Positions 17,770-31,882 of a DNA stretch of 32,077 nucleotides are shown here, in pieces; within the stretch, counting starts at the first letter, position 1; the number at the start of each line of letters is the position of its first letter. A program made the translations under genes and the position numbers. The notes under the pieces were generated by a model that was given only the letters and a program-made list of their open reading frames with translations, had not been told where the DNA came from and made no database searches. The stretch spans positions 1 through 32,077 of the forward strand of contig CALUWD010000020.1 in assembly GCA_944324385.1 (NCBI GenBank), in the 5' to 3' direction. The DNA comes from Candidatus Gastranaerophilales bacterium. GTDB lineage: Bacteria > Cyanobacteriota > Vampirovibrionia > Gastranaerophilales > Gastranaerophilaceae.

Positions 17770-17794
17770 AACGCCCCGAAAGGGGCGTTTTTTT
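17770..17794 (+). terminator. Rho-independent terminator of the EF-hand-like gene
   Basis: AACGCCCC and GGGGCGTT form an 8-bp stem with a GAAA tetraloop, followed by five or more T. It lies 9 bases after the stop. The stop codon of the convergent exporter gene overlaps the T tract. Confidence 0.95.
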
Positions 17795-19388
17795 ATATAA
17801 CACCTCTGTGTTTAAATATTCTGTAATAAGCGCGGATAGTCGAAATGACTTTTCTGCGCTTTGGCATTTTAAATAAAAATATAAAAGGTATAGCCAAAAT
17901 GCACATAAGAGCTAAGAGTAGGAATACATCATAAAATGCGCATAGCTTTGACTGCAATAGCATTTGTTTATACAAATAACCATTAGCTTTTTTTGCTGCT
18001 ATGTATGGTGCAAAATAAGTCATAAATTTAGTTTTTAAAACTAATATTTTGTATTGAAAGTTTAAATTTGTTGGCGAAAGGTAGGCCACAAGATAATTTT
18101 GATGTATTTGCGAAACTCTTGTTACAAATGTAGAAACTGCAGAAGTAGAGATAGCGGTAACAATATTTTTAAAGAGCGCATGAAGACCTGCTGCATCAGC
18201 TAGTTTTGTTTTGGAAAGAGTTATAAATGAAAGTGCGCTTACTGGTACAAATGTTACCGCTATACCTATTCCTAAAATTATGTTTGGTAAAATTATATTT
18301 TCTAGTGATGATGTAGTGTTCAATCTTGAAAACATAAATACTGATGTAGCCATAATTAAAAGACCAATAACTGTTAAGAGCCTATTTTCAACCTTGTCTG
18401 CAATTTTGCCCATAATTAAAAGTCCAATAAAACATGAAATGGCCCGTGGGAATACTGAAACCCCTGCAAAAAATGGAGAATAACCAAGCATATTTTGTCC
18501 AAACATAGGTATTAAAAGCAAAGTGCCATATAACATAATGTTAATAAACGAGCTAATAAATGTCCCTACTAAAAAATTCCTGTCCTTGAATACTCTAACA
18601 TCAACAATTGGCTTTTTTGTCTCAAGCTCCCAAACGTAGAAAAATACAAAAGAAACAATTGATGTTAATGTAAGCCAATAAATCCAATATGTATCAAACC
18701 AGTTAAATTGTTCGCCTTTGTCCAAGACTATTTGCATACATGCCATGGCTAGAATTATCGCAACAAGCCCAACGTAGTCCATTTTTCGCTTTGGCGCATT
18801 TTCATTTTTTTCGCCTGAAATAAAAAATTTGATTAATATAAGGCTGATTAAACAGATTGGAATATTCATAATAAAAACCCATTTCCATGAGTAATTATCC
18901 GTTAAATAACCTCCTACAAATGGGCCAAATAGTGGTGAAAACATCGCGGCAAAACCAAAAAATCCCATTGCCACACCTTTTTTCTCAGGCGGAAACGTTT
19001 CAAGCAAAACAGCTTGTGCTAGCGGCAACAATGCACCACCTGCTGCACCTTGAACCACTCTGCAAAGAATAAGCATATGTAAGTCTTTTGACAAAAGACA
19101 AAGAATGCAACCCAAGCAAAATAAGCTAACACTCCAGTATGCAACACTTTTTTTCCCGCTTGTATTCATCCACCAGCCAAAAACAGGCAACATAATACCG
19201 CCGGATATAATATAAGCTGTAATTATACTGTTTGCTTCATATGGTGTTGCGCCAAAATATCCAGCAATATGTGGTTGGCAGACGTTTGTAGCTGAAGATG
19301 CTACCATCGACATAAAAGCTGGTAAAAGTATTGTAATTGCTACTATGTAAGGGTTAACCTTCTTCTTTGTAGTTGTTTGCTTTGGCAT
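17793..19388 (-). CDS. DHA2-family (EmrB/QacA-type) MFS drug/proton antiporter
   Basis: The 531-residue protein has about 14 hydrophobic segments, the count for the DHA2 family. Diagnostic motifs are the loop 2-3 motif GWWMNTSGKKS, RVVQGAAGGALLPLAQA in TM4, and the antiporter motif in TM5 (FSPLFGPFVGGYLTDNYSW). It would export an amphipathic compound in exchange for protons at the inner membrane; the substrate cannot be read from sequence. AAGGTG lies 8 bases before the ATG. It is the last gene downstream of a DtxR-type regulator, so it may export a metal chelate, siderophore or toxic metal complex rather than a drug; this is inference. No EmrA-type adaptor is adjacent, though a TolC-like protein is at 23571. 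Confidence 0.93.
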   Translation of the reverse strand: MPKQTTTKKKVNPYIVAITILLPAFMSMVASSATNVCQPHIAGYFGATPYEANSIITAYIISGGIMLPVFGWWMNTSGKKSVAYWSVSLFCLGCILCLLSKDLHMLILCRVVQGAAGGALLPLAQAVLLETFPPEKKGVAMGFFGFAAMFSPLFGPFVGGYLTDNYSWKWVFIMNIPICLISLILIKFFISGEKNENAPKRKMDYVGLVAIILAMACMQIVLDKGEQFNWFDTYWIYWLTLTSIVSFVFFYVWELETKKPIVDVRVFKDRNFLVGTFISSFINIMLYGTLLLIPMFGQNMLGYSPFFAGVSVFPRAISCFIGLLIMGKIADKVENRLLTVIGLLIMATSVFMFSRLNTTSSLENIILPNIILGIGIAVTFVPVSALSFITLSKTKLADAAGLHALFKNIVTAISTSAVSTFVTRVSQIHQNYLVAYLSPTNLNFQYKILVLKTKFMTYFAPYIAAKKANGYLYKQMLLQSKLCAFYDVFLLLALMCILAIPFIFLFKMPKRRKVISTIRAYYRIFKHRGVI

Positions 19389-19399
19389 GAATTATCACC

Positions 19400-19421
19400 T
19401 TGTGTTATGATGATAACACAA
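19400..19421. promoter_or_regulatory. 22-bp palindrome upstream of the exporter gene
   Basis: TTGTGTTAT, 4 bases (GATG), ATAACACAA: perfect 9-bp arms, 12 bases before the exporter start and between it and the DtxR-type gene. It may be an operator for a second regulator or an mRNA hairpin in the intergenic leader. It differs from the tandem sites at 20898-20937. Confidence 0.6.
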
Positions 19422-19441
19422 AGAAAATTTCATGCAAAACT

Positions 19442-19825
19442 TTATTTATTTATGTAATTTTTCGTAAATTTAATTATTCTCTCTAAAATATCGGCTGATA
19501 TTATGTGCTCAATTGCACATGCATTTTTTTGGGATTCTTCATCAGAAGCACCAAGGACATATTTAAAAAATTCAAAAAGCGAAGTGTGCTTGTTGGCGAC
19601 TTCCTTTGCAAGACTTTCGCCCAAGGGAGTTATTGAAATAGCATCATATCTGCCATAATTAATTAATTTTTTTTGCGCCAATTTTTTTAAAGCTTCAGTA
19701 GTTGACGCGCGGCTTACTCCTAGCTTGCGAGAAATATCAATTGCTTTTACACTATTGTTCTGCTTGATAATTATGTATATTGCTTCTAAATAGTCTTCTA
19801 GGCTTGATGTTAGCTTTTCATTCAT
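19442..19825 (-). CDS. DtxR/MntR-family metal-dependent transcriptional regulator
   Basis: The 127-residue protein has the DtxR-family winged helix (about 7-70: SSLEDYLEAIY, KAIDISRKLGVSRASTTEALKKL, AISITPLGE) and the metal-binding dimerisation domain (about 75-125), without the SH3-like third domain of DtxR, so it has MntR-like length. Candidate metal ligands are D11 and E14, as in MntR, H80, and C103-x-x-E106-H107. The Cys in that last motif matches DtxR/IdeR rather than the Glu of MntR, so the preferred metal (Fe or Mn) cannot be decided. It starts 3 bases after the stop of the membrane protein gene, without its own ribosome site, and is probably translationally coupled. The tandem palindromes heading this operon resemble DtxR-type boxes, so autoregulation is likely. 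Confidence 0.92.
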   Translation of the reverse strand: MNEKLTSSLEDYLEAIYIIIKQNNSVKAIDISRKLGVSRASTTEALKKLAQKKLINYGRYDAISITPLGESLAKEVANKHTSLFEFFKYVLGASDEESQKNACAIEHIISADILERIIKFTKNYINK

Positions 19826-19828
19826 TTT

Positions 19829-20887
19829 TTAATTATGTTGATGAATGTTCGCTTTGTCAAGTTTTGAATATGAATTATTGTTGCGATATCCAATAGCTGC
19901 CCTATATCCAGAAACAAGATACATAACAGGCAGCAGTGGTTCAATCCATTTCACCCCAGATAATACACCTGCAGTTGCTATATCATCTGTATGTAGTGCA
20001 ACATCTAGGACTTCTGGTTTTCTTTCTTCTTTATTTTGAGGATTTTTTGTTTTTGTACATTTATTAATAACAGGATTTATAAAATTATTTCCAAGAAAAT
20101 TTGCAATTTTGCTTCCTCCAAGGACTCCTACTACTAGAATGCCACTTAGTATTGCCAGTGTTTTTTTCATTGGTGATAAATTTTTAATCACTCCTACTTT
20201 ATTTAATTTTTCAGCACTAAATAAAAAAGTACCCGCACCTACATTGCATAAGAATATATTTGCAAAAAATTGATAGATGCCTTCTTTAAGTTTATTTGTA
20301 GCCTTTTCCTTTGTTAAATTGCCACACATTTTATCTGCTACCAATCCACCCATAACACCACTTAAAACTGGTACAAATCCCATTATAGAGAGTTTTGATA
20401 TTTCCTGCAGTATTTTGCCACTTGTTATATTTTCTTTTTCGCTAAATAGAGTTGCTACTAGCTCCTTGGCTTGTTTATTATTTTTAATATCATTTAACAA
20501 GGTATTTGTATCTCTTAGGCTTAGCATTTTACTTCTTGCCTTATTTAAAATATTAAGACAGCTTGGCAAAATATCAGTATTTACCTTTAAAAATTCGTCA
20601 ATAGCTTTGTTTTGTTTTTTTAGTATTTGATTTTTGGGCGTGAACTCTATTAGGTTTTCTCCTTTTATTTTTACCTTTTTTGCAGTAAAAATCGATGCAG
20701 CAACTATGCTTCCTAGTATAATTGCATTTTTAATTGCAGTTTCTTTTCTATCTTTTTTTTCATGTGAATATGTGTCCTTAATGCCATACGCTATTGCACT
20801 GCCTATTAGTATATGTGGCATTTTTCTACTCAATGCGTTTGATAATAACGGTTGATCTAAAAATTTTCCAAGCGTTGAAATATTCAT
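19829..20887 (-). CDS. Membrane protein of unknown function in a DtxR operon
   Basis: The 352-residue product is not a family that I recognise. Hydrophobic segments are seen at about 25-36, 54-69, 168-185, 206-224, 243-258 and 305-330, with a charged helical region between 80 and 160. Conserved-looking glycine patterns (SGVMGGLVADKMCG, SGILVVGVLGGSK) suggest packed membrane helices. The tail ends in IHQHN. The ATG (complement of 20885-20887) follows AGGGG at the proper distance; an upstream TTG in frame lies within the operator and is unlikely. It is the first gene of an operon with the DtxR-type regulator and the DHA2 exporter, so a metal-linked role (transport, storage or stress) is suggested by context only. 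Confidence 0.85.
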   Translation of the reverse strand: MNISTLGKFLDQPLLSNALSRKMPHILIGSAIAYGIKDTYSHEKKDRKETAIKNAIILGSIVAASIFTAKKVKIKGENLIEFTPKNQILKKQNKAIDEFLKVNTDILPSCLNILNKARSKMLSLRDTNTLLNDIKNNKQAKELVATLFSEKENITSGKILQEISKLSIMGFVPVLSGVMGGLVADKMCGNLTKEKATNKLKEGIYQFFANIFLCNVGAGTFLFSAEKLNKVGVIKNLSPMKKTLAILSGILVVGVLGGSKIANFLGNNFINPVINKCTKTKNPQNKEERKPEVLDVALHTDDIATAGVLSGVKWIEPLLPVMYLVSGYRAAIGYRNNNSYSKLDKANIHQHN

Positions 20888-20897
20888 TATTTTTCCC

Positions 20898-20937
20898 CTG
20901 TTAGTTGCACCTAACAATTGTTAGACATGCCTAACAA
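20898..20937. promoter_or_regulatory. Two tandem DtxR-type operator palindromes
   Basis: Two adjacent 20-bp units: CTGTTAG-TTGCAC-CTAACAA (20898-20917) and TTGTTAG-ACATGC-CTAACAA (20918-20937). Each is an inverted repeat with 6- to 7-bp arms and a 6-base spacer. The TTAG/CTAA core resembles DtxR boxes. The upper unit overlaps the -10 element of the promoter at 20934-20962, and the lower unit lies just downstream of it, where a bound repressor would block transcription. Confidence 0.8.
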
Positions 20938-20962
20938 TAGAACAAGAATATTTTTTTGTCAA
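20934..20962 (-). promoter_or_regulatory. Promoter of the membrane protein/DtxR/exporter operon
   Basis: On the minus strand TTGACA (complement of 20957-20962), a 17-base spacer and TATTGT (complement of 20934-20939). The -10 shares bases with the upper operator unit. Confidence 0.75.
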
Positions 20963-21028: not shown

Positions 21029-21739
21029 ATGAAAAAAATTATATTAATTTTGCTTGTGTTACTTTTTTCCTCACCGGTTTTTGCTGTTAAAAAGCTCTTT
21101 TTTAATGGATTTGTTTCTGATAACGCGGCAGTAATTTCTGATGACTCGATTAATTATATTAATTCCTTTTTATATGATTTACAGAAAAAAACCGGTACTG
21201 ATATTGCAGTTGTAACTCTATACCGTATTTATAACCAAAGTGTGGAAGATGCTGCGCTAGAGATTGGGCGTAAGTATAAATTAGGTTCTAAAAGTTTAAA
21301 CAATGGCGCAGTAGTTCTTGTTGTTGTTAAAGATAGAGTAATGCGTATTGAAATTGGCTATGGCCTCGAAGGGATAATTACAGATGCCCACGCAGGTAGA
21401 ATTAGGGATGCAATGCTGCCTTATTTTAAAAATGAAGATTACGAGAGTGGTATCTTAAAAGGCACTTATATGCTTGCAAGCGATATTGCCAAAGGTTATG
21501 GTGTTGAACTTTCAAGTGCCCCACCTAAAATTAACCCGTTTAAGGCACCACTTAGCAATCCAAACCTGCTTATGTTTTTGTTAATCTGCTTTATGATATT
21601 TAGGATTTCTTACATATGGAACTCTGCCTTTGGCGTACATTACTATGGCAGTCACACAAGCTTTGGTGGCTTCAGTGGTTTTGGTGGCTTCGGTGGCGGA
21701 GGCGGATTTGGAGGCGGTGGAGCTTCGGGAAGGTGGTAA
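21029..21739 (+). CDS. TPM-domain (YgcG/Psb32-type) membrane protein
   Basis: The 236-residue protein starts with a Sec signal peptide (MKKIILILLVLLFSSPVFA, cleavage near 19-20). Residues about 28-160 form the TPM domain (FNGFVSDNAAVISD, TGTDIAVVTLY, NNGAVVLVVVKDRVMRIEIGYGLEG, ITDAHAGRI), which lies outside the membrane. One membrane helix (about 178-196) follows, then a Gly/Phe-rich tail (GGFGGGGGFGG) typical of bacterial TPM proteins. In other organisms the domain is linked to photosystem repair or to phosphatase activity, but the bacterial role is not settled. TGAGGAG precedes the ATG. The LemA gene downstream is a known frequent neighbour of TPM genes. Confidence 0.93.
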   Translation: MKKIILILLVLLFSSPVFAVKKLFFNGFVSDNAAVISDDSINYINSFLYDLQKKTGTDIAVVTLYRIYNQSVEDAALEIGRKYKLGSKSLNNGAVVLVVVKDRVMRIEIGYGLEGIITDAHAGRIRDAMLPYFKNEDYESGILKGTYMLASDIAKGYGVELSSAPPKINPFKAPLSNPNLLMFLLICFMIFRISYIWNSAFGVHYYGSHTSFGGFSGFGGFGGGGGFGGGGASGRW

Positions 21740-22431
21740 TGTATAGTATTGAAAAATATTTGAATGATTTGAGTACGATTTTTAGCGGTGATTTAAAATC
21801 AGTATTTATATATGGATCTGCTACAAGAAAAGAAACAAAAAACAATATCAATTTAATGATAATTGTAGATAATTTAAGTGGTGAGCGTGTCAGGCTTTGT
21901 ACGACTCCTACAAAAAAATGGATGTTGCTAAAGAACCCTGAGCCTGTTTTTATAACTTATGATGAATGGAAATGTTCAGCGGATACTTACGCGCTAGAGT
22001 ATTCAGACATTGTTGATTTTCATAGGATTATTTACGGTAAGGATTACATTTCTCAAATAGTTGTTAAGCGCGAAGACTTGCGTTTGCAGTGTGAAAGGGA
22101 AATTAAGAGCTTGCTTATGAAGTTGAGAGCTTTTTATATATTAAATTCTAATTCAAAATTTATGCTTAAAAGAATATTTGTGCCTTGTTGTACAACGTTT
22201 ATGGCTATATTTAGAGGAATTTTGCGACTAAATAATGTGACAATAAATAAGGATGATAAGGCAGTAATTAATTCTTGCGCTACAATTTCTGGTTTTTCGG
22301 AAGAAGTATTTCAAGTTTTATTAGACCACAAAATAGGCGTTCAGAAGATAAAAAGTGCACAAGCGCACAAAATTCTCGATAATTTAATTTCAGAGCTAGA
22401 AATATTATTATGTTATGTTAATTCACTGTAA
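21739..22431 (+). CDS. Nucleotidyltransferase-fold protein, active-site Asp replaced
   Basis: The 230-residue protein starts with a segment resembling the polymerase-beta nucleotidyltransferase fold: SVFIYGSATRKETKNNINLM at 21-40, where the usual motif is GSxARGxxxxxSDIDL. The GS pair is kept, but both metal-binding aspartates appear as N36 and N38, so it is probably inactive as an NTase. The remainder is helical and resembles the C-terminal helical region of such proteins, with several Cys (PCCTTF) and no membrane helix. Its ATG overlaps the TPM stop (TAATG), with GGTGG ahead of it, and LemA follows 9 bases after its stop. A function connected to TPM and LemA is implied by this placement but unknown. 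Confidence 0.78.
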   Translation: MYSIEKYLNDLSTIFSGDLKSVFIYGSATRKETKNNINLMIIVDNLSGERVRLCTTPTKKWMLLKNPEPVFITYDEWKCSADTYALEYSDIVDFHRIIYGKDYISQIVVKREDLRLQCEREIKSLLMKLRAFYILNSNSKFMLKRIFVPCCTTFMAIFRGILRLNNVTINKDDKAVINSCATISGFSEEVFQVLLDHKIGVQKIKSAQAHKILDNLISELEILLCYVNSL

Positions 22432-22440
22432 GGAGAGAAT

Positions 22441-23022
22441 ATGAATAGAAATAAAATTCCTGCAATCGGAATAGTTGTCATTGTAATAGTAGTAATTTGC
22501 TTAGCATTTTTGAATTCTTACAATTCGCTGCAAATTTTAGATGAAAACGTTAACTCAAAATGGGCACAAATTGATAACCAATTAAAAAGAAGGAATGACC
22601 TCATTCCAAATTTAGTAGGCACTATAAAGGGTTATGCTGCACATGAAAGTAAAATTTTTACAGATGTTGCAAATGCACGCACAAAACTTTCTAATTCACT
22701 TAATGCTAATGACATTAAGACTGTACAAAAAAACGCAAATGAGTTGAATAGCGCGCTTTCAAGATTGCTTTTAGTGGTTGAAAGGTATCCTGATTTAAAG
22801 GCTGATAAAAATTTTATAGCATTGCAAGATGAACTGGCAGGAACTGAAAACAGAATTGCTGTTGCAAGAATGGATTATAACGAGAGTGTTAAGTCATTAA
22901 ATGCAAAAATCAGAACCTTTCCTACATCCTTAATAGCAAACTTTGCAAATATAAAATCACGCGATTATTTTGAAGTGGATGAGCAAGAAAAAGCAGTTCC
23001 TACTGTTGATTTTACCAAATGA
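22441..23022 (+). CDS. lemA: LemA-family protein
   Basis: The 193-residue protein has one N-terminal membrane helix (about 8-24, rich in I and V) and then the LemA helical bundle: YNSLQILDENVNSKWAQIDN, QLKRRNDLIPNLVGTIKGYA, ANARTKL, LSRLLLVVERYPDLKADKNF, LAGTENRIAVARMDYN, and the C-terminal FPTSLIANF segment. All LemA signatures are present. The family's molecular function is not established; it is commonly encoded beside TPM/YgcG-type proteins, as here. AAGGAGAG lies 6 bases before the ATG. Its 3' end overlaps the glycosylase start by 4 bases. Confidence 0.95.
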   Translation: MNRNKIPAIGIVVIVIVVICLAFLNSYNSLQILDENVNSKWAQIDNQLKRRNDLIPNLVGTIKGYAAHESKIFTDVANARTKLSNSLNANDIKTVQKNANELNSALSRLLLVVERYPDLKADKNFIALQDELAGTENRIAVARMDYNESVKSLNAKIRTFPTSLIANFANIKSRDYFEVDEQEKAVPTVDFTK

Positions 23023-23570: not shown

Positions 23571-24869
23571 TTAAAGATTTGCAGTTTGCTCTAGCGATTC
23601 TACGTCAACTTCTCTCAAAAAGTTTATCCAGCAAGAATAATACTGAGAAAGTGCATATGTGTAGCCAAGAATTATTGACCTGTATGATTGTTCAATAACT
23701 ATTAGTGAAGTAAGGTCGGTTTTACCTTCCTCGTAATTCTTTTTAGATGTTTTCATCATTGTTTTTGAATCTTCTATAAGACTATCAGTGTAGTAGTTTA
23801 GGTTCACTCTGGCATTTATTAGTTTTTCATACGCGCTACTTAAATTTGCAAAAGCGTTGTTCTGCGCTGCTGCGTATTTTAATTGTGCTTTTTCTATCTC
23901 TAGTTTTGCATTTTTTATTTCAGGGGAGTAATTGTATAAAATTGGTAAGTTAACAAGGCTTGCGCCAGCATATGCACCATTTAAAAATCTGCCTTCACCA
24001 GACACGCCTATAGGCTGGTACAGATAACCTGCAGTTATTTCAACATCGGGCACTCTTTGGCTGGTTGCTATTTTTAGATTATTTTTTGCTACTTCTATTT
24101 CCTTTTGTGCAATTTTTAAGTCATACCTGTGTTGTTCAGCTAAAGCTAATATATCGTTAAAGGATGGTAATTCCGACTTTGGGGATGGCGTCAAAAGCTT
24201 ATCAAAATTGACATCTTCATCAAATGTCATAACTATCGAATCATATATAGGATCTGTATCCATTATACTGTTAAACTGAAAGCGAGCAGACATAATGCTT
24301 GTTCTTGCTGTATTAAGTTGTGTTCTAACATGATTTAGTGAAATATCAGCCTGTATTACATCAGTTTCAGTTGCATTACCATTTTTATATCTTTGTTTTA
24401 CAAGTTTATTAATTTCGCTTAGTGATTTTTCTTCAATTTCAAGGGATTCTGCAATAGATTTAGCGTTAACAAGATTTATATACGCCTCTCTGACATCCAT
24501 TTTAAGATCAAAATTTTTATATCTTGCGCTCTCTTCGCTTACTTCATAACTTGCAATAGCACTTTTTTTCCTGTGTTTTCTCTTGAATAACTCTACAAGT
24601 TGGGTTATACCTATTGTATGAGGATTGCCAGAACCAGCTTCACCCATGTTCCAATATGTATCTATAGATGGGTTTTGCAGTCTGTTGGCAGCTTTAATTG
24701 TGTTTTTAGCTATTTCGACATTAAGCTTTTGAGTATCAAGCTCAATACTGTTATCAGTAGCGATTTTGAGGGCTTCTTCAATTGTAATTTTTTTTATATC
24801 TTCAATCGCAAGCGCATTTGCGCCTATTGTTAATGTAATTAAAAGTGCTAGCAGAATTTTTAATTTCAC
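23571..24869 (-). CDS. TolC-family outer-membrane efflux protein
   Basis: The 432-residue protein has a signal peptide (about 1-21, ending ANALA) and two outer-membrane efflux protein repeats (about 32-215 and 245-425), each with long alpha-helical hairpins. It would form the trimeric beta-barrel/tunnel of a type I or RND/MFS efflux system, which implies a Gram-negative-type envelope. The start is GTG: a stop (TAA) lies directly upstream in frame, and the signal peptide begins there. No periplasmic adaptor or RND pump is adjacent, so its inner-membrane partner must be elsewhere; the DHA2 exporter at 17793 is the only candidate in the window. The promoter lies in the 88-base divergent gap with the sugar porter. 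Confidence 0.9.
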   Translation of the reverse strand: MKLKILLALLITLTIGANALAIEDIKKITIEEALKIATDNSIELDTQKLNVEIAKNTIKAANRLQNPSIDTYWNMGEAGSGNPHTIGITQLVELFKRKHRKKSAIASYEVSEESARYKNFDLKMDVREAYINLVNAKSIAESLEIEEKSLSEINKLVKQRYKNGNATETDVIQADISLNHVRTQLNTARTSIMSARFQFNSIMDTDPIYDSIVMTFDEDVNFDKLLTPSPKSELPSFNDILALAEQHRYDLKIAQKEIEVAKNNLKIATSQRVPDVEITAGYLYQPIGVSGEGRFLNGAYAGASLVNLPILYNYSPEIKNAKLEIEKAQLKYAAAQNNAFANLSSAYEKLINARVNLNYYTDSLIEDSKTMMKTSKKNYEEGKTDLTSLIVIEQSYRSIILGYTYALSQYYSCWINFLREVDVESLEQTANL

Positions 24870-24957: not shown

Positions 24958-26316
24958 ATGAAAAAACATGAATTTTGGCTATTTTTTACAGCACTTATGG
25001 CAGCTCTTGGCGGTTTGCTTTCCGGTTATGACACAGGTGTAATATCTGGTGCATTGTTGTATATTAATCAAACATGGAGTTTGAGCGATTTTCAGCAAGG
25101 CTTTTTAGTTAGTTCTGTTTTAATTGGCGCACTACTGGGCGCTGCATCGAATGGCAAACTTGCAGACATTTTTGGTAGAAAAACTATTATAATCGCAACT
25201 GCAATAATGTTTTTTGTAGGTTCAATATTTTGCGCTATAGCACAAAGTCCAATGCAACTTATTTTAGCTAGAATGTTTACTGGCTTTGCAGTTGGTGCTG
25301 TTAACTTTGCTGCACCACTTTATTTGTCAGAAGTTTCTCCAAAAGAAAAGCGCGGCATGTTTGTTTCGCTTTTTCAATTGGCAATTACAGCCGGAATTCT
25401 CTTTTCATATTTAGTTAATTCTTTCTTCTCGCACTTTGAACACACTTGGAGATTGATGTTGCTTGCTGGTGTTGCGCCTGCTGCGATACTTTTTTTGGGA
25501 ATGTTATTCTTAAACGATACTCCTCGTTGGCTTGTTTTAAAAGGGAGAGATAATGACGCCAAAAATGCTTTTATAAAAATTCAGGGCAATATTGATACAG
25601 ATTATGAAATTAATGAAATTAAACATTCGCTAAATACTGATAAAGGCGGCAAATTTGAATTTAAAAAATGGCTAATTATGCCTTTTGTCGTTGGTATTGG
25701 TATTATGTTTGCGCAGATTTGCACAGGTGTAAATACAATAATTTATTACGCGCCCACTATTTTTAAACTGTCAGGTTTTGACAGTAATCAAAGCGCAATT
25801 TATGCAACAAGTTTAATTGGTATTGTAAACTTTTTAATGACATTTGTTGCTATAGCTTATAGTGATAAAATTGGAAGAAAACCATTATTATACATTGGTT
25901 TAACAGGCGTTATGCTGAGTTTAATAATAATGGGATGTGTATTTGCATTTGCACCATATTTAGGTACGCTTGTTAAGTGGTTTGCAGTGGGTAGTTTATT
26001 ATTCTATATTGTCTGCTTTGCCTTTAGTTTAGGGCCTGTTGGCATGACTCTTATTTCTGAAGTATTTCCGCTTCAAGTTCGCGGTGTTGGAATGAGCATT
26101 TGTATGGTTTCAAACTTTGTGTTTAATTTTATAATTACATTTAGCTTTCCTGTTATGCTCAAAAACATAGGCGCAGCGTATACTTTCTGGTTATTTGTCG
26201 TAATTTGTATTATATGCTTGTTTTTCGTTTATTTCTTTGTGCCTGAAACAAAAGGCATTGCCCTTGAAAAAATTGAAGAAAATTGGAAAAACGGTGTTAA
26301 GGCAAGAGATTTTTAA
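24958..26316 (+). CDS. Sugar porter (MFS, XylE/GalP-like)
   Basis: The 452-residue protein has 12 membrane helices and sugar-porter signatures: GGLLSGYDTGVISGALL in TM1, DIFGRK in loop 2-3, LYLSEVSPKEKRG, TPRWL at the end of TM6, CTGVNTIIYYAPTIF in TM7, SDKIGRK in loop 8-9, LGPVGMTLISEVFPLQVRG in TM10, and VPETKG after TM12. It would take up a hexose or pentose with H+ or as a uniporter; the sugar is not predictable. The ATG lacks a clear ribosome site and lies in an AT-rich 88-base divergent gap with the TolC-like gene. Its 3' end overlaps the convergent Memo-AMMECR1 gene by 4 bases. Confidence 0.95.
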   Translation: MKKHEFWLFFTALMAALGGLLSGYDTGVISGALLYINQTWSLSDFQQGFLVSSVLIGALLGAASNGKLADIFGRKTIIIATAIMFFVGSIFCAIAQSPMQLILARMFTGFAVGAVNFAAPLYLSEVSPKEKRGMFVSLFQLAITAGILFSYLVNSFFSHFEHTWRLMLLAGVAPAAILFLGMLFLNDTPRWLVLKGRDNDAKNAFIKIQGNIDTDYEINEIKHSLNTDKGGKFEFKKWLIMPFVVGIGIMFAQICTGVNTIIYYAPTIFKLSGFDSNQSAIYATSLIGIVNFLMTFVAIAYSDKIGRKPLLYIGLTGVMLSLIIMGCVFAFAPYLGTLVKWFAVGSLLFYIVCFAFSLGPVGMTLISEVFPLQVRGVGMSICMVSNFVFNFIITFSFPVMLKNIGAAYTFWLFVVICIICLFFVYFFVPETKGIALEKIEENWKNGVKARDF

Positions 26317-27632
26317 ATATACTCTGTGTAAAATCTGTACGCTTTAAAGCTATTTGAAAAATGCTCAGGGCTTAATCCTGCCTTTTGCTTTAAGGAATAT
26401 AGAAAAATTCTTTTATCTGGCAATTGTTCCCATACACTTGGCAAGTACACTGCCCTTTTGCCTAAGTCTGAAATAATTATTCCGTCTTTGTTTTGCACAA
26501 TTTTTTCAAGCAAATCTTCTTCATCTGTAAAATCAATTTCTACAGGCTCGCTTAAGAGTGATATTTTTATTTCAATTTCACCAATTTCACTTTCTTTAAG
26601 TGGTTGAAATCTTGGGTCTTTGTATGCGCTCATACAGGCGTTGGTGATTAAATCGTCAATTAGCTCTCTATAAGCGACAATTGAGCCAATACAACCTCTT
26701 AAATTGTCATTTTTCTCTAGCGTTACAAAGCTTGCACCAATCTCGTTGAAAACTGCAGGGCAATGTATATTTGACAAATTGCCCCTTGCTTTAATGGAGT
26801 TAAGACAAATTTCTTTAGCTAAGCTTGAGTAGTATTTTTTAATAAAATTATTCTTTTCACCTTCGTATAACATCCAGCTGCCATAACCTACGACATTGTT
26901 TTTATCATTGGTCACAAGGCATGAATTTCGCATATCAAGCCTGATAAAAGAGAAATTTTTTGATTTTGAAAATTCAACAGCACCACAAATCGCGCTTGCG
27001 TTGCATGCCTGCTCTCGATTAAAATTTTCTGATTTGTTGGATTCTATCATCTGCGCTGTTATATTATCAATCTTTTTTGCTTTTTCATCTGTTAAAAAGT
27101 GTGTCAAATCAGTTGAAATTACAAAAGAATTGTTAGAATTTTCATAATAGTAGCTAATTATCTCGTATATGACTCTTGGGTCGCAATTCCCAACTAAAAT
27201 TGGTATGATATTAAAATCATCCTTTAAATATTTTAAAAAAGGCAATTGAACTTCTATTGCATGCTCTGTTTCAAAAGCCTCATCGCAGTAATTTGCATAA
27301 AATTTATCTGCAATTTCTTGAATAATTTCAATATTTACTTGAACTTTACCAAAAGGAGTTTCAAAGTAGTTATAGCTGCAAAGTGCAATACCTTCAACAT
27401 AAACTTTGTGTGCTGGAGCAAATATAAATATATTTTTACCACCCAAATGTTTTAGTGCATAGTATGCGCCAAAACCAGAGTATTTGTAACCAGCATGCGG
27501 GGCAATAACGAGCCTTGAAATGTAGCTGGTATCATTTTTTATATTTAATTCATACTCATTTATTAATTTTACTATTTCATTTTTATCGCTAGGGTAGAAC
27601 ATACCTGAAACAGCCATATTTTTAATTTTCAA
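26313..27632 (-). CDS. Memo-AMMECR1 fusion protein (AmmeMemoRadiSam system)
   Basis: The 439-residue protein joins two domains that are usually separate or fused in this system. Residues 1 to about 262 are the Memo domain, related to LigB-type dioxygenases (MAVSGMFYPSD, VIAPHAGYKYSG with H46, FAPAHKVY with H75, THFL, GAV). Residues about 268-439 are the AMMECR1 domain, with the hallmark LRGCIGS. The start codon is taken as TTG at 27632 because GGAG is six bases upstream; an ATG five codons later (27617) lacks a properly spaced ribosome site. It is divergent from the radical SAM partner with only 51 bases between. The family is defined by this gene trio, but the product is unknown to me. Confidence 0.94.
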   Translation of the reverse strand: MKIKNMAVSGMFYPSDKNEIVKLINEYELNIKNDTSYISRLVIAPHAGYKYSGFGAYYALKHLGGKNIFIFAPAHKVYVEGIALCSYNYFETPFGKVQVNIEIIQEIADKFYANYCDEAFETEHAIEVQLPFLKYLKDDFNIIPILVGNCDPRVIYEIISYYYENSNNSFVISTDLTHFLTDEKAKKIDNITAQMIESNKSENFNREQACNASAICGAVEFSKSKNFSFIRLDMRNSCLVTNDKNNVVGYGSWMLYEGEKNNFIKKYYSSLAKEICLNSIKARGNLSNIHCPAVFNEIGASFVTLEKNDNLRGCIGSIVAYRELIDDLITNACMSAYKDPRFQPLKESEIGEIEIKISLLSEPVEIDFTDEEDLLEKIVQNKDGIIISDLGKRAVYLPSVWEQLPDKRIFLYSLKQKAGLSPEHFSNSFKAYRFYTEYI

Positions 27633-27683
27633 TAGTTACTCCATATATTACTAAAATCCATAAAATAAATTATAATATATTTT

Positions 27684-28691
27684 ATGGAATATTTTACTAA
27701 ACTTGATGATAATGTTTTAATTTGTGAAGTTTGTCCACGTCGGTGTCACCTAAAAAAGGGGCAAAGTGGTTTTTGTCATATAAGAGTTAACAGTGGCAGT
27801 AAAATTGAATTTTTATCATATGGTCACATTACAGGTCTTGCAATTGACCCTATTGAAAAGAAACCTCTTTTTCATTTTTTCCCATCAACAGAAATACTGT
27901 CATTAGGGACTTATGGGTGCAATATGGGCTGTAAGTTTTGCCAAAACTTTACTACAACTAAAACAAAGTTAAATCCTTTTGATTTGCCCTTTGTTGCGCC
28001 AAAAGAAGTAGTTCGCGCCGCAAAAGATAATAACTGTAAAAGCATTGCATTTACCTATAATGACCCTGTTGTGTTTTTCGAGTATGCTTTGGATGTAGCG
28101 CGCTTAGCTAAAAATGAGGGTATCAAAACAGTAGCAGTTAGCGCAGGTTATGCTCAAAGCGAAATTCGCAAAAGACTTTTCTCTAATATGGATGCTGTAA
28201 ATATTGATTTAAAAGCTTTTTCTGATGATTTTTACAGAAAAAACTGCGCAGCAAAACTTGATGTTGTGCTTGATACGCTAAAATATATTAAACATGAAAC
28301 AAGTGCATGGCTTGAGATTACCACACTTTTAATTGAGGGTGAAAATGACTCTGAAGATGAGATTTTTGAGATGTGTGAGTGGATTGTTAATAATTTGGGC
28401 AAAAACACTCCGCTACATTTTAGCGCATTTCACCCTGCATATAAAATGCTAAATAAACCAAGAACATCATTTGAAACACTCAAAAGGGCATATACCATAG
28501 CAAAAGATTGCGGTATAAGCTATGTCTATCTAGGAAATGTTCGCGATATTTTAACCTCATCCACTTACTGCAAAAAATGTGGAACACTTTTAATTGAACG
28601 TGATTGGTTTAAAGTTACAAAGTATAATTTAGACAAATTTGCACGTTGTAAAAATTGTCACACACTTTGCGATGGGTTTTTTATTAAGTAG
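27684..28691 (+). CDS. amrS: Radical SAM enzyme of the AmmeMemoRadiSam system
   Basis: This is a 335-residue radical SAM protein. The N-terminal extension carries four cysteines (C14, C17, C21, C31: CEVCPRRCHL and FCHIR) typical of AmrS. The [4Fe-4S] cysteines are C79, C83 and C86 in GCNMGCKFCQN. TYNDPVVFFEYA and VNIDLKAFSDDFYRKNC are strong family motifs. A zinc-ribbon-like tail follows (CKKCG and CKNCHTLC). Pairing with the Memo-AMMECR1 fusion across a 51-base divergent gap is the signature of the system. The substrate is unknown to me; the similarity to pyruvate formate-lyase activating enzymes is in the core only. The 3' end overlaps the convergent acyl-CoA synthetase gene by 8 bases. Confidence 0.94.
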   Translation: MEYFTKLDDNVLICEVCPRRCHLKKGQSGFCHIRVNSGSKIEFLSYGHITGLAIDPIEKKPLFHFFPSTEILSLGTYGCNMGCKFCQNFTTTKTKLNPFDLPFVAPKEVVRAAKDNNCKSIAFTYNDPVVFFEYALDVARLAKNEGIKTVAVSAGYAQSEIRKRLFSNMDAVNIDLKAFSDDFYRKNCAAKLDVVLDTLKYIKHETSAWLEITTLLIEGENDSEDEIFEMCEWIVNNLGKNTPLHFSAFHPAYKMLNKPRTSFETLKRAYTIAKDCGISYVYLGNVRDILTSSTYCKKCGTLLIERDWFKVTKYNLDKFARCKNCHTLCDGFFIK

Positions 28692-30436: not shown

Positions 30437-31882
30437 TTACACAATTGGCTTTGAATCTTTAGTAAACTCGTTAATTGCTTTTGTAGCTGTTCTAACGTTG
30501 TTCAAGCAGTCATTTCCGCCCACACAACCACCTTCACAGCACATAACTTCAATTAAGTTTCCGCAATCGCATTCGCCTTTTTTGGCAAAGTTTTTAAGAG
30601 CACGTATAGATTCTTTATTTATGCCGTTTACAAGGTGTGGTTTTATTTCGCTTTTACCGTTATCAGCAACTTCTACAGATTTTGCAACACCACCTGTTAT
30701 ACCAAAATTTCTGCCTTCGCGCGATGATTCAATTTCATATGGTGTTTCTTCTAATTCTGATAACTCAATTTTATGAGCTACGAACAGGGCACCTAATTCT
30801 TCGTAGTTCATAACGTAATCTACATTTGGATTCTTTTGCGCTTCGCTTTTCTTAGCTACACAAGGTGAAACAAAAACAGTTACAGCATCTGGATATTTTT
30901 CTTTGCAAATCTCAGCTATGTAGTACATAGGTGTTTTTGTTTCTGATCTAAATGGCGCAATTTCATTTAAATGTTTATCCACAAGATTGTTGTAACCAGC
31001 ACAGCAGGATGTTGTCATGAATTTTTGACCTTCGCTCATGCGCTCTGCAAATTCTTTTGCCTCATTTTTAGCAGTAACATCAGCACCTTGAGCAACCTCA
31101 AGAACGTCGCTAAAGCCGCATTTTAGCATTGCTGTCTTTAGTTGGTAAATATTGCAAGGCAATTGACCTGCAATTGATGGAGCAATAAGGGCAACAACTT
31201 TTTTGCCTTGCTTGATTTTAGTTAAAATGTCTATAATTTGACTTTTTTCATGGATTGCACCGAATGGACATGCGCTAACACATTTGCCACATGTAATGCA
31301 TTTATCAAAATCAATTCTTGCATGACCTTGTTCATCTTTCGAAATTGCATCAACAGGACATGCGCTTTCGCAAGGAACAACAATTTTTACAATTGCATGG
31401 TATGGGCAAACTTGGATACATTTAGTACAGTTTTTGCATTTAGAGCTGTCAATTTGTGATTTGCCGTTAACAATTGATATAGCTCCAAATTTACAGTTTT
31501 CAATGCAAGGTCTTGCAACGCAGCCTTGGCACAGGTCTGTAACAAAAATTCTGTTTGGAACACAACCTTTGCAAGCAGACTCTAGCACAGTTAGTGTGTG
31601 TTCGTCCGGTTTTTCGCGCTCTTGAGCCCATTTTGCATAGTTAGAAAGCAAAATCCTCTCATCACAACCTTCAATTGGGAACCCAAGTGTAGCAATGATT
31701 CGATTTCTTAGAATTTCTCTTTCTTTGTATATACAGCAACGATAAGGTACTTCAGAACCCTTTGGTCGCATTTCAAAAGGTATTAACCTCGTATTTTCGC
31801 CGAAATCGTCCGACAAAAATGCTTTTATTGTTTTAATTAAAATCTCTTTTTTTAAATGATTTGCTTGATTATTCTTGTCCAT
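30437..31882 (-). CDS. [FeFe] hydrogenase, group B-like, with N-terminal ferredoxin-like clusters
   Basis: The 481-residue protein has an N-terminal region with about twelve clustered cysteines for 4Fe-4S clusters (C104-x2-C107, CQGCVARPCIENC 118-130, CKNCTKCIQVCP 149-160, CESACPVDAI, CITCGKCVSACP 195-206) and the H-cluster domain. L1 is TSCCAGY (C293, the likely proton-relay Cys, and C294), L2 is PCVAKKSE (C341), and L3 is EVMCCEGGCVGGND (C449 and C453). All four H-cluster cysteines are present; Ala for Pro in L1 and ND at the end of L3 differ from group A. It overlaps the 3' end of a thioredoxin-like ferredoxin gene by 14 bases. Maturases HydE, F and G are not in the window. The role is H2 evolution or uptake, direction unknown. 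Confidence 0.9.
   Translation of the reverse strand: MDKNNQANHLKKEILIKTIKAFLSDDFGENTRLIPFEMRPKGSEVPYRCCIYKEREILRNRIIATLGFPIEGCDERILLSNYAKWAQEREKPDEHTLTVLESACKGCVPNRIFVTDLCQGCVARPCIENCKFGAISIVNGKSQIDSSKCKNCTKCIQVCPYHAIVKIVVPCESACPVDAISKDEQGHARIDFDKCITCGKCVSACPFGAIHEKSQIIDILTKIKQGKKVVALIAPSIAGQLPCNIYQLKTAMLKCGFSDVLEVAQGADVTAKNEAKEFAERMSEGQKFMTTSCCAGYNNLVDKHLNEIAPFRSETKTPMYYIAEICKEKYPDAVTVFVSPCVAKKSEAQKNPNVDYVMNYEELGALFVAHKIELSELEETPYEIESSREGRNFGITGGVAKSVEVADNGKSEIKPHLVNGINKESIRALKNFAKKGECDCGNLIEVMCCEGGCVGGNDCLNNVRTATKAINEFTKDSKPIV

Follow-up and report, generated by a model that had tools for sequence, protein, structure and literature searches.

The DNA analysed here, referred to as the window, is a stretch of 32,077 nucleotides (contig 20) from a Candidatus Gastranaerophilales genome of 1.69 Mb and 99% completeness, whose close relatives carry labels of Candidatus Gastranaerophilales, including Candidatus Galligastranaerophilus. 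This order of gut bacteria is related to the Cyanobacteria, widespread and still uncultured. On the minus strand of the window lies an operon in which a membrane protein of an unnamed family, called MEM throughout, is followed by a DtxR/MntR-family regulator and an exporter of the major facilitator superfamily (MFS). An earlier interpretation made from the letters alone (the sequence-only reading) had proposed these three genes behind tandem operators, and gene calls and profile searches bear this out. The features, in the direction of transcription, are as follows.

20957..20962, minus strand: -35 hexamer TTGACA, read from the sequence; perfect at the identical operator offset in 71 of 81 loci
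20934..20939, minus strand: -10 hexamer TATTGT after a 17-bp spacer, from sequence and conserved architecture; overlaps the distal operator
20918..20937, unstranded: putative distal operator TTGTTAG-acatgc-CTAACAA, perfect palindromic arms (0/14 mismatches)
20898..20917, unstranded: putative proximal operator CTGTTAG-ttgcac-CTAACAA (1/14 mismatches), immediately past the likely start of transcription
19829..20887, minus strand: MEM, membrane protein of 352 amino acids, unnamed family, apparent core target of the regulator; ATG start, AGGGG Shine-Dalgarno sequence
19442..19825, minus strand: DtxR/MntR-family regulator, 127 amino acids (PF01325 and PF02742)
17793..19388, minus strand: DHA2/EmrB-type MFS exporter, 531 amino acids, genus-specific third gene (TIGR00711)

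The two operators abut without a gap, the second copy ending at the MEM Shine-Dalgarno sequence, and the overlap of the -10 hexamer with one of two back-to-back palindromes, as first described, is plain in the sequence. In a scan of the whole genome no third site came within one mismatch of the motif, and matches with two mismatches showed no excess over a reversed control. Four matches with three mismatches or fewer occur in the window, equal to the chance expectation; the case for the operators thus depends on the tandem pair of near-perfect copies.

Conservation of the box, MEM and the regulator

Conservation was counted over 81 MEM loci (a GTDB collection gave 275 loci, 80 of which were fetched), with the genus represented by 15 genomes, namely that of the window and 14 others. 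Every one of the 81 loci across the order has a GTTAG-N6-CTAAC box in its MEM promoter, with 0 mismatches of 14 in 20 loci, 1 in 14, 2 in 42 and 3 in 5; among shuffled MEM promoters, 1.8% reach three mismatches or fewer. TTGACA precedes the box by exactly 25 bp in 71/81 loci, a fixed distance by which the box overlaps the -10 hexamer in nearly every locus. Tandem boxes occur at 27 of the 81 loci, all 15 of the genus among them; the MEM ortholog has the box in each of the 14 other genus genomes, 13 of them with two exact GTTAG-N6-CTAAC copies, and in G009 the second copy differs by one change. The MEM-promoter box is almost invariant as a putative operator in Gastranaerophilales, and its conservation across genus and order removes doubt on the operator, providing a sharp consensus and a testable regulon for the order.

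The regulator gene adjoins MEM in 52 of the 81 loci, upstream of MEM in most genera and downstream in the genus of the window. Even where dtxR lies elsewhere the box is retained at MEM, and of the 54 genomes of the order that carry MEM, 51 also have DtxR (Fisher p 1e-6, without correction for phylogeny). Judging from these comparisons, the core unit is MEM with the regulator and the operator, and MEM is its constant target across the order. Autoregulation of the regulator is to be expected in this genus since dtxR is the second gene behind the operators; this position and the box architecture support the metalloregulated, autoregulated promoter with tandem operators on its -10 that the sequence-only reading envisaged. 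In a genome lacking MEM, tandem boxes directly precede dtxR (L278, G045 contig 84), suggesting direct autoregulation there.

The exporter (TIGR00711, 369 bits, cut-off 230) lies within the operon only in the window's genus; G009 has kept MEM and dtxR but no more than fragments of the exporter. The exporter has been added locally, in a single genus, and does not belong to the conserved module, which weakens the initial idea of exporter and membrane protein as one module. That MEM and the DHA2 exporter jointly secrete an iron chelator (a metallophore) is highly improbable. The exporter's presence in the operon would suit such a function, as would two TolC-family genes, one beside the operon in this genus and one with tandem boxes in another clade, but three profiles found no IucA/IucC, non-ribosomal peptide synthetase condensation domain or Fe-siderophore binding protein (Peripla_BP_2) in the window's genome, and the exporter is missing outside the genus and has decayed in G009, where MEM and dtxR persist. 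The TolC-family gene of the window (23571-24869, minus strand) has an ortholog adjoining MEM on the same strand in most other genus genomes, an adjacency by which it may partner the DHA2 exporter; the operon holds no HlyD adaptor. A further target in one clade is a TolC-family outer-membrane gene (PF02321) ~4.7 kb from MEM, with one or two boxes upstream (L197:9053-10537, minus strand, and its relatives L137, L147, L157, L159, L174-L176, L178 and L189).

Genes under the box and the metal sensed

The regulon was scanned by pattern searches over genomes and fetched regions, with a box matrix built from the MEM promoters. Of the strong matches within 935 kb around 80 MEM genes, 119 fell in MEM promoters; almost all of the other 22 precede either a DUF2023 gene or one particular TolC-family gene. 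The box precedes feo operons in G032, G050, G060 and G071 and dtxR-feoA-feoB in G079, and GTTCGG...CCGTAC palindromes related to it precede dtxR-feo in G062 and G076, with a mixed form in G077. The genes dtxR, feoB and MEM are consecutive in G062, as are dtxR, two small genes, MEM, DUF2023, a small gene and flavodoxin in G080. The best regulon test here is an internal control provided by the DUF2023 genes, as the box stands at those of the HHIYE type in 14 of 20 genomes and at 0 of 26 genes of the other type. Regulation of DUF2023 through the box was rejected for the window's own genome, which has only the other type, without a box. In iron-starved Bacteroidetes, DUF2023-flavodoxin operons are among the most induced genes, rising up to some hundred-fold (PMC10434189). 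The boxes described here would tie the family to iron control in a second phylum. Ferritin adjoins MEM in 15 of the 81 loci, and Fur and rubrerythrin do so in two. No box was found in the upstream stretches of ZIP genes examined, and the regulon scan found no manganese transporter under the box.

This context of feo, DUF2023, flavodoxin and ferritin in relatives suggests that the metal sensed is most likely iron. A link of the motif to metal genes, on which the sequence-only reading had made its proposal depend, is present in relatives, where the box precedes feoAB, dtxR and DUF2023; its contrast with the importers and storage genes usual in DtxR regulons falls away, given feoAB under the box and ferritin adjacent. 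Among the remaining boxes, a strong one lies 49 bp upstream of a gene for pyruvate formate-lyase (L266, G069 contig 1, 155755) and two share the gap that separates a peroxiredoxin gene from a large divergent one (L274, G032 contig 19); others are inside genes or have no clear downstream gene (L264, L265, L267, L279-L281).

The regulator matches PF01325 (E 4.8e-13, 49.6 bits, cut-off 26) and PF02742 (E 2.4e-12, 47.1 bits, cut-off 27) and ends after the dimerisation domain, without a C-terminal SH3/FeoA domain. Its ligand set, read from the sequence, is D11, E14, H80, C103, E106 and H107, which confirms the residues named before and adds H80; E14, C103, E106 and H107 are invariant in 56/56 orthologs and D11 is kept in 54. 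D11 and E14 are MntR-like and C103-x2-E106-H107 is DtxR-like, a mixture at first emphasized as novel that is already known from PgMntR of Porphyromonas gingivalis (ligands Asp19, Cys108, Glu111, His112), which with the same set bound both manganese and iron; in vitro, Mn(II) enhances the DNA binding of PgMntR and Fe(II) reduces it (PMC4805248). In light of this behavior the ligand set of the regulator is, by analogy, ambiguous on the metal, which counts against the assignment to iron.

The likeness to MntR also leads to a different explanation, a manganese sensor of the MntR type with MEM as a manganese importer or exporter. The nearest solved chains are MntR, and the best NCBIfam matches are MntR models, all below cut-off (82.2 against 153, 75.5 against 138 and 58.1 against 350 bits), the regulator scoring below the curated cut-offs of all MntR/DtxR models; D11 and E14 match MntR, PgMntR with its same ligands is Mn-responsive in vitro (PMC4805248), and this genome has no Nramp or ZnuA-type manganese importer. 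We nevertheless consider a manganese sensor unlikely, as the invariant C103, a DtxR-type ligand, occupies the aligned position of Glu99, the glutamate expected of an MntR equivalog, and the regulon partners in relatives are feoAB, DUF2023 and flavodoxin beside MEM. The long DtxR/IdeR subtype does not describe the regulator either, which lacks the SH3-like domain and has D11 at the aligned position of the Met ligand M10.

We suggest that the operon is probably the local copy of an iron-responsive DtxR regulon of Gastranaerophilales, with ordinary DtxR logic built around MEM. With Fe(II) plentiful, the regulator would bind it via the six ligands, and iron-loaded dimers would occupy both 20-bp operators and block RNA polymerase, given that the distal operator covers the -10 hexamer and the proximal one the transcript start. 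When iron is short, the repressor would let go of a strong promoter, and the output would be MEM, more regulator and, in this genus, the DHA2 exporter, with MEM most likely serving ferrous-iron acquisition or handling at low iron. The opposite arrangement, in which the regulator activates MEM and MEM guards against surplus iron or exports it, would have a parallel in MntR, which activates manganese exporters; ferritin and rubrerythrin/Fur genes adjoin MEM in some genera, and the histidine-rich tails of the family would suit a metal sink. We judge it improbable, however, as a box on the -10 and the transcript start behind a near-consensus -35, at nearly every locus, fits repression, and the co-regulated feoAB and DUF2023 are genes of starvation, not of excess.

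The MEM family and its candidate role

Among 98 relatives searched, 65 have MEM at E <=0.001, the weakest of these representing a shorter paralog family. MEM has no Pfam or NCBIfam match; 26 family members contain no FeoB_N GTPase, Gate or FeoB_C domain and, compared with the Pfam metal transporters (Nramp, ZIP, VIT1 and others), gave nothing beyond one Cad match at E 0.01, and the MEM profile run against PDB sequences found only unrelated proteins at E ~0.4. A confident AlphaFold2 model (pLDDT 84.7, pTM 0.82) is helical, predicting five long helices, a shorter C-terminal helix and a soluble helical insert at ~85-148, so that the original description as a six-helix protein is a fair one. Foldseek gave no PDB match at E <=0.001 for the whole model or for residues 150-338, and BFVD held nothing confident for the whole model; the best VIA Z values for the model and its conserved half, 6.9 and 8.0, are within helical-bundle noise. 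Two of the entries listed, ZnT3 (8xn1, Z 6.0) and 4u9l (Z 6.0, 3.4 A over 103 residues; its title is no more than ‘Structure of a membrane protein’), stand amid many unrelated helical proteins and carry no weight. As modelled, MEM has no recognisable known fold, which does not by itself prove a new one. Across 65 sequences 61 of the 352 positions are invariant, including H299, D301, D302, E292, D295, E202 and C214, and many members have histidine-rich loops or tails (e.g., GDKHHHHKS, QHHHHKFHKECCGK, KDHHRHACHHTNC).

The shorter paralogs are present in many relatives, one following feoB in G077 and another, without a box, encoding 231 amino acids with ~31% identity to residues 159-332 (L261:1564-2256, G000 contig 8). 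A MEM locus with dtxR and ferritin also occurs in a record labelled Fusobacterium sp. CAG:439 (L172, FR900472.1); it is Gastranaerophilales-like, and the label is probably wrong.

That MEM is some kind of iron-starvation protein is, from its regulatory context, very probable. Its putative derepression without iron, its membrane location and its conserved acidic and histidine residues would fit an importer, and iron uptake is the best guess for MEM in a genome where profile searches found no FeoB, Nramp, ZnuA or any of the siderophore families looked for, FeoB_C and Nramp being absent from all 15 genus genomes. The step to an iron transporter is the weakest of the explanation and stays tentative; that MEM is a ferrous-iron (or Fe/Mn) transporter of a new kind with its own fold, forming the main DtxR-controlled iron route of FeoB-less Gastranaerophilales, is more doubtful still. 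Several observations weigh against it: a ZIP transporter is present in the window's genome and in 13 of the 15 genus genomes and could supply the iron; ZIP and FeoB are anticorrelated in presence (p 1e-5), MEM and FeoB far more weakly; both MEM and FeoB are present in several genomes; and the modelled fold matches no known transporter. MEM as a replacement of FeoB was rejected on presence and absence, the p of 0.03 within the family being confounded by phylogeny and giving way to 0.61 across the order once this genus is left out. A role as accessory to some other importer, or as an iron chaperone in the membrane, would suit MEM equally well.

In the literature searched we found nothing on iron sensing or uptake in Gastranaerophilales, and in genomes without FeoB, Nramp or siderophore systems MEM is a concrete candidate for the route of iron entry, with ZIP as the main competitor. 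The novel part of the system is the membrane protein, rather than the exporter or the mixed ligand set: a single family, found in most of the order and lacking annotation or a recognisable fold, is singled out as the constant gene under putative iron control.

Elsewhere in the window, genes for a TPM-domain protein, a 271-amino-acid protein without Pfam match and a LemA protein are divergent from the operon (21029-23022), and AmmeMemoRadiSam genes follow at 26313-28691, with a fused B+A protein on the minus strand and a divergent radical S-adenosylmethionine enzyme. A monomeric group B1 [FeFe] hydrogenase (TIGR04105), an iron-demanding enzyme, is encoded at 30437-31882 on the minus strand.

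Comparison with known systems

The Feo system is connected to MEM through the box, which feoAB share in relatives, and through the G062 cluster with dtxR; MEM differs from it in having no GTPase, Gate or FeoB_C domain, and FeoB_C itself is absent in 15/15 genus genomes. With MntR of Bacillus subtilis and with PgMntR, the regulator shares the two-domain DtxR fold predicted by PF01325 and PF02742 and the D/E...H...x-x-E-H ligand frame, PgMntR having the Asp/Cys/Glu/His set too. It differs from MntR in C103 in place of Glu99 and in the iron genes under the box in relatives, and from PgMntR, with its twin FeoA domains, and from DtxR in the lack of a FeoA/SH3 tail.

The actinobacterial DtxR/IdeR systems are alike in their palindromic TTAG...CTAA-type operators on iron-gene promoters, regulator autoregulation included, and in the Cys-x2-Glu-His motif. 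The operator described here is a 20-bp GTTAG-N6-CTAAC unit, however, often present as two abutting units, and the core target is a membrane protein without annotation, siderophore genes not having been found in this genome. The troABCDR operon of Treponema likewise includes, at its end, the DtxR-family gene whose product controls it, and has a dyad-symmetric operator at its promoter, repression by TroR depending on both manganese and iron (PMC2628430); tro encodes an ATP-binding cassette cation importer, whereas the operon of the Gastranaerophilales is led by a single membrane protein.

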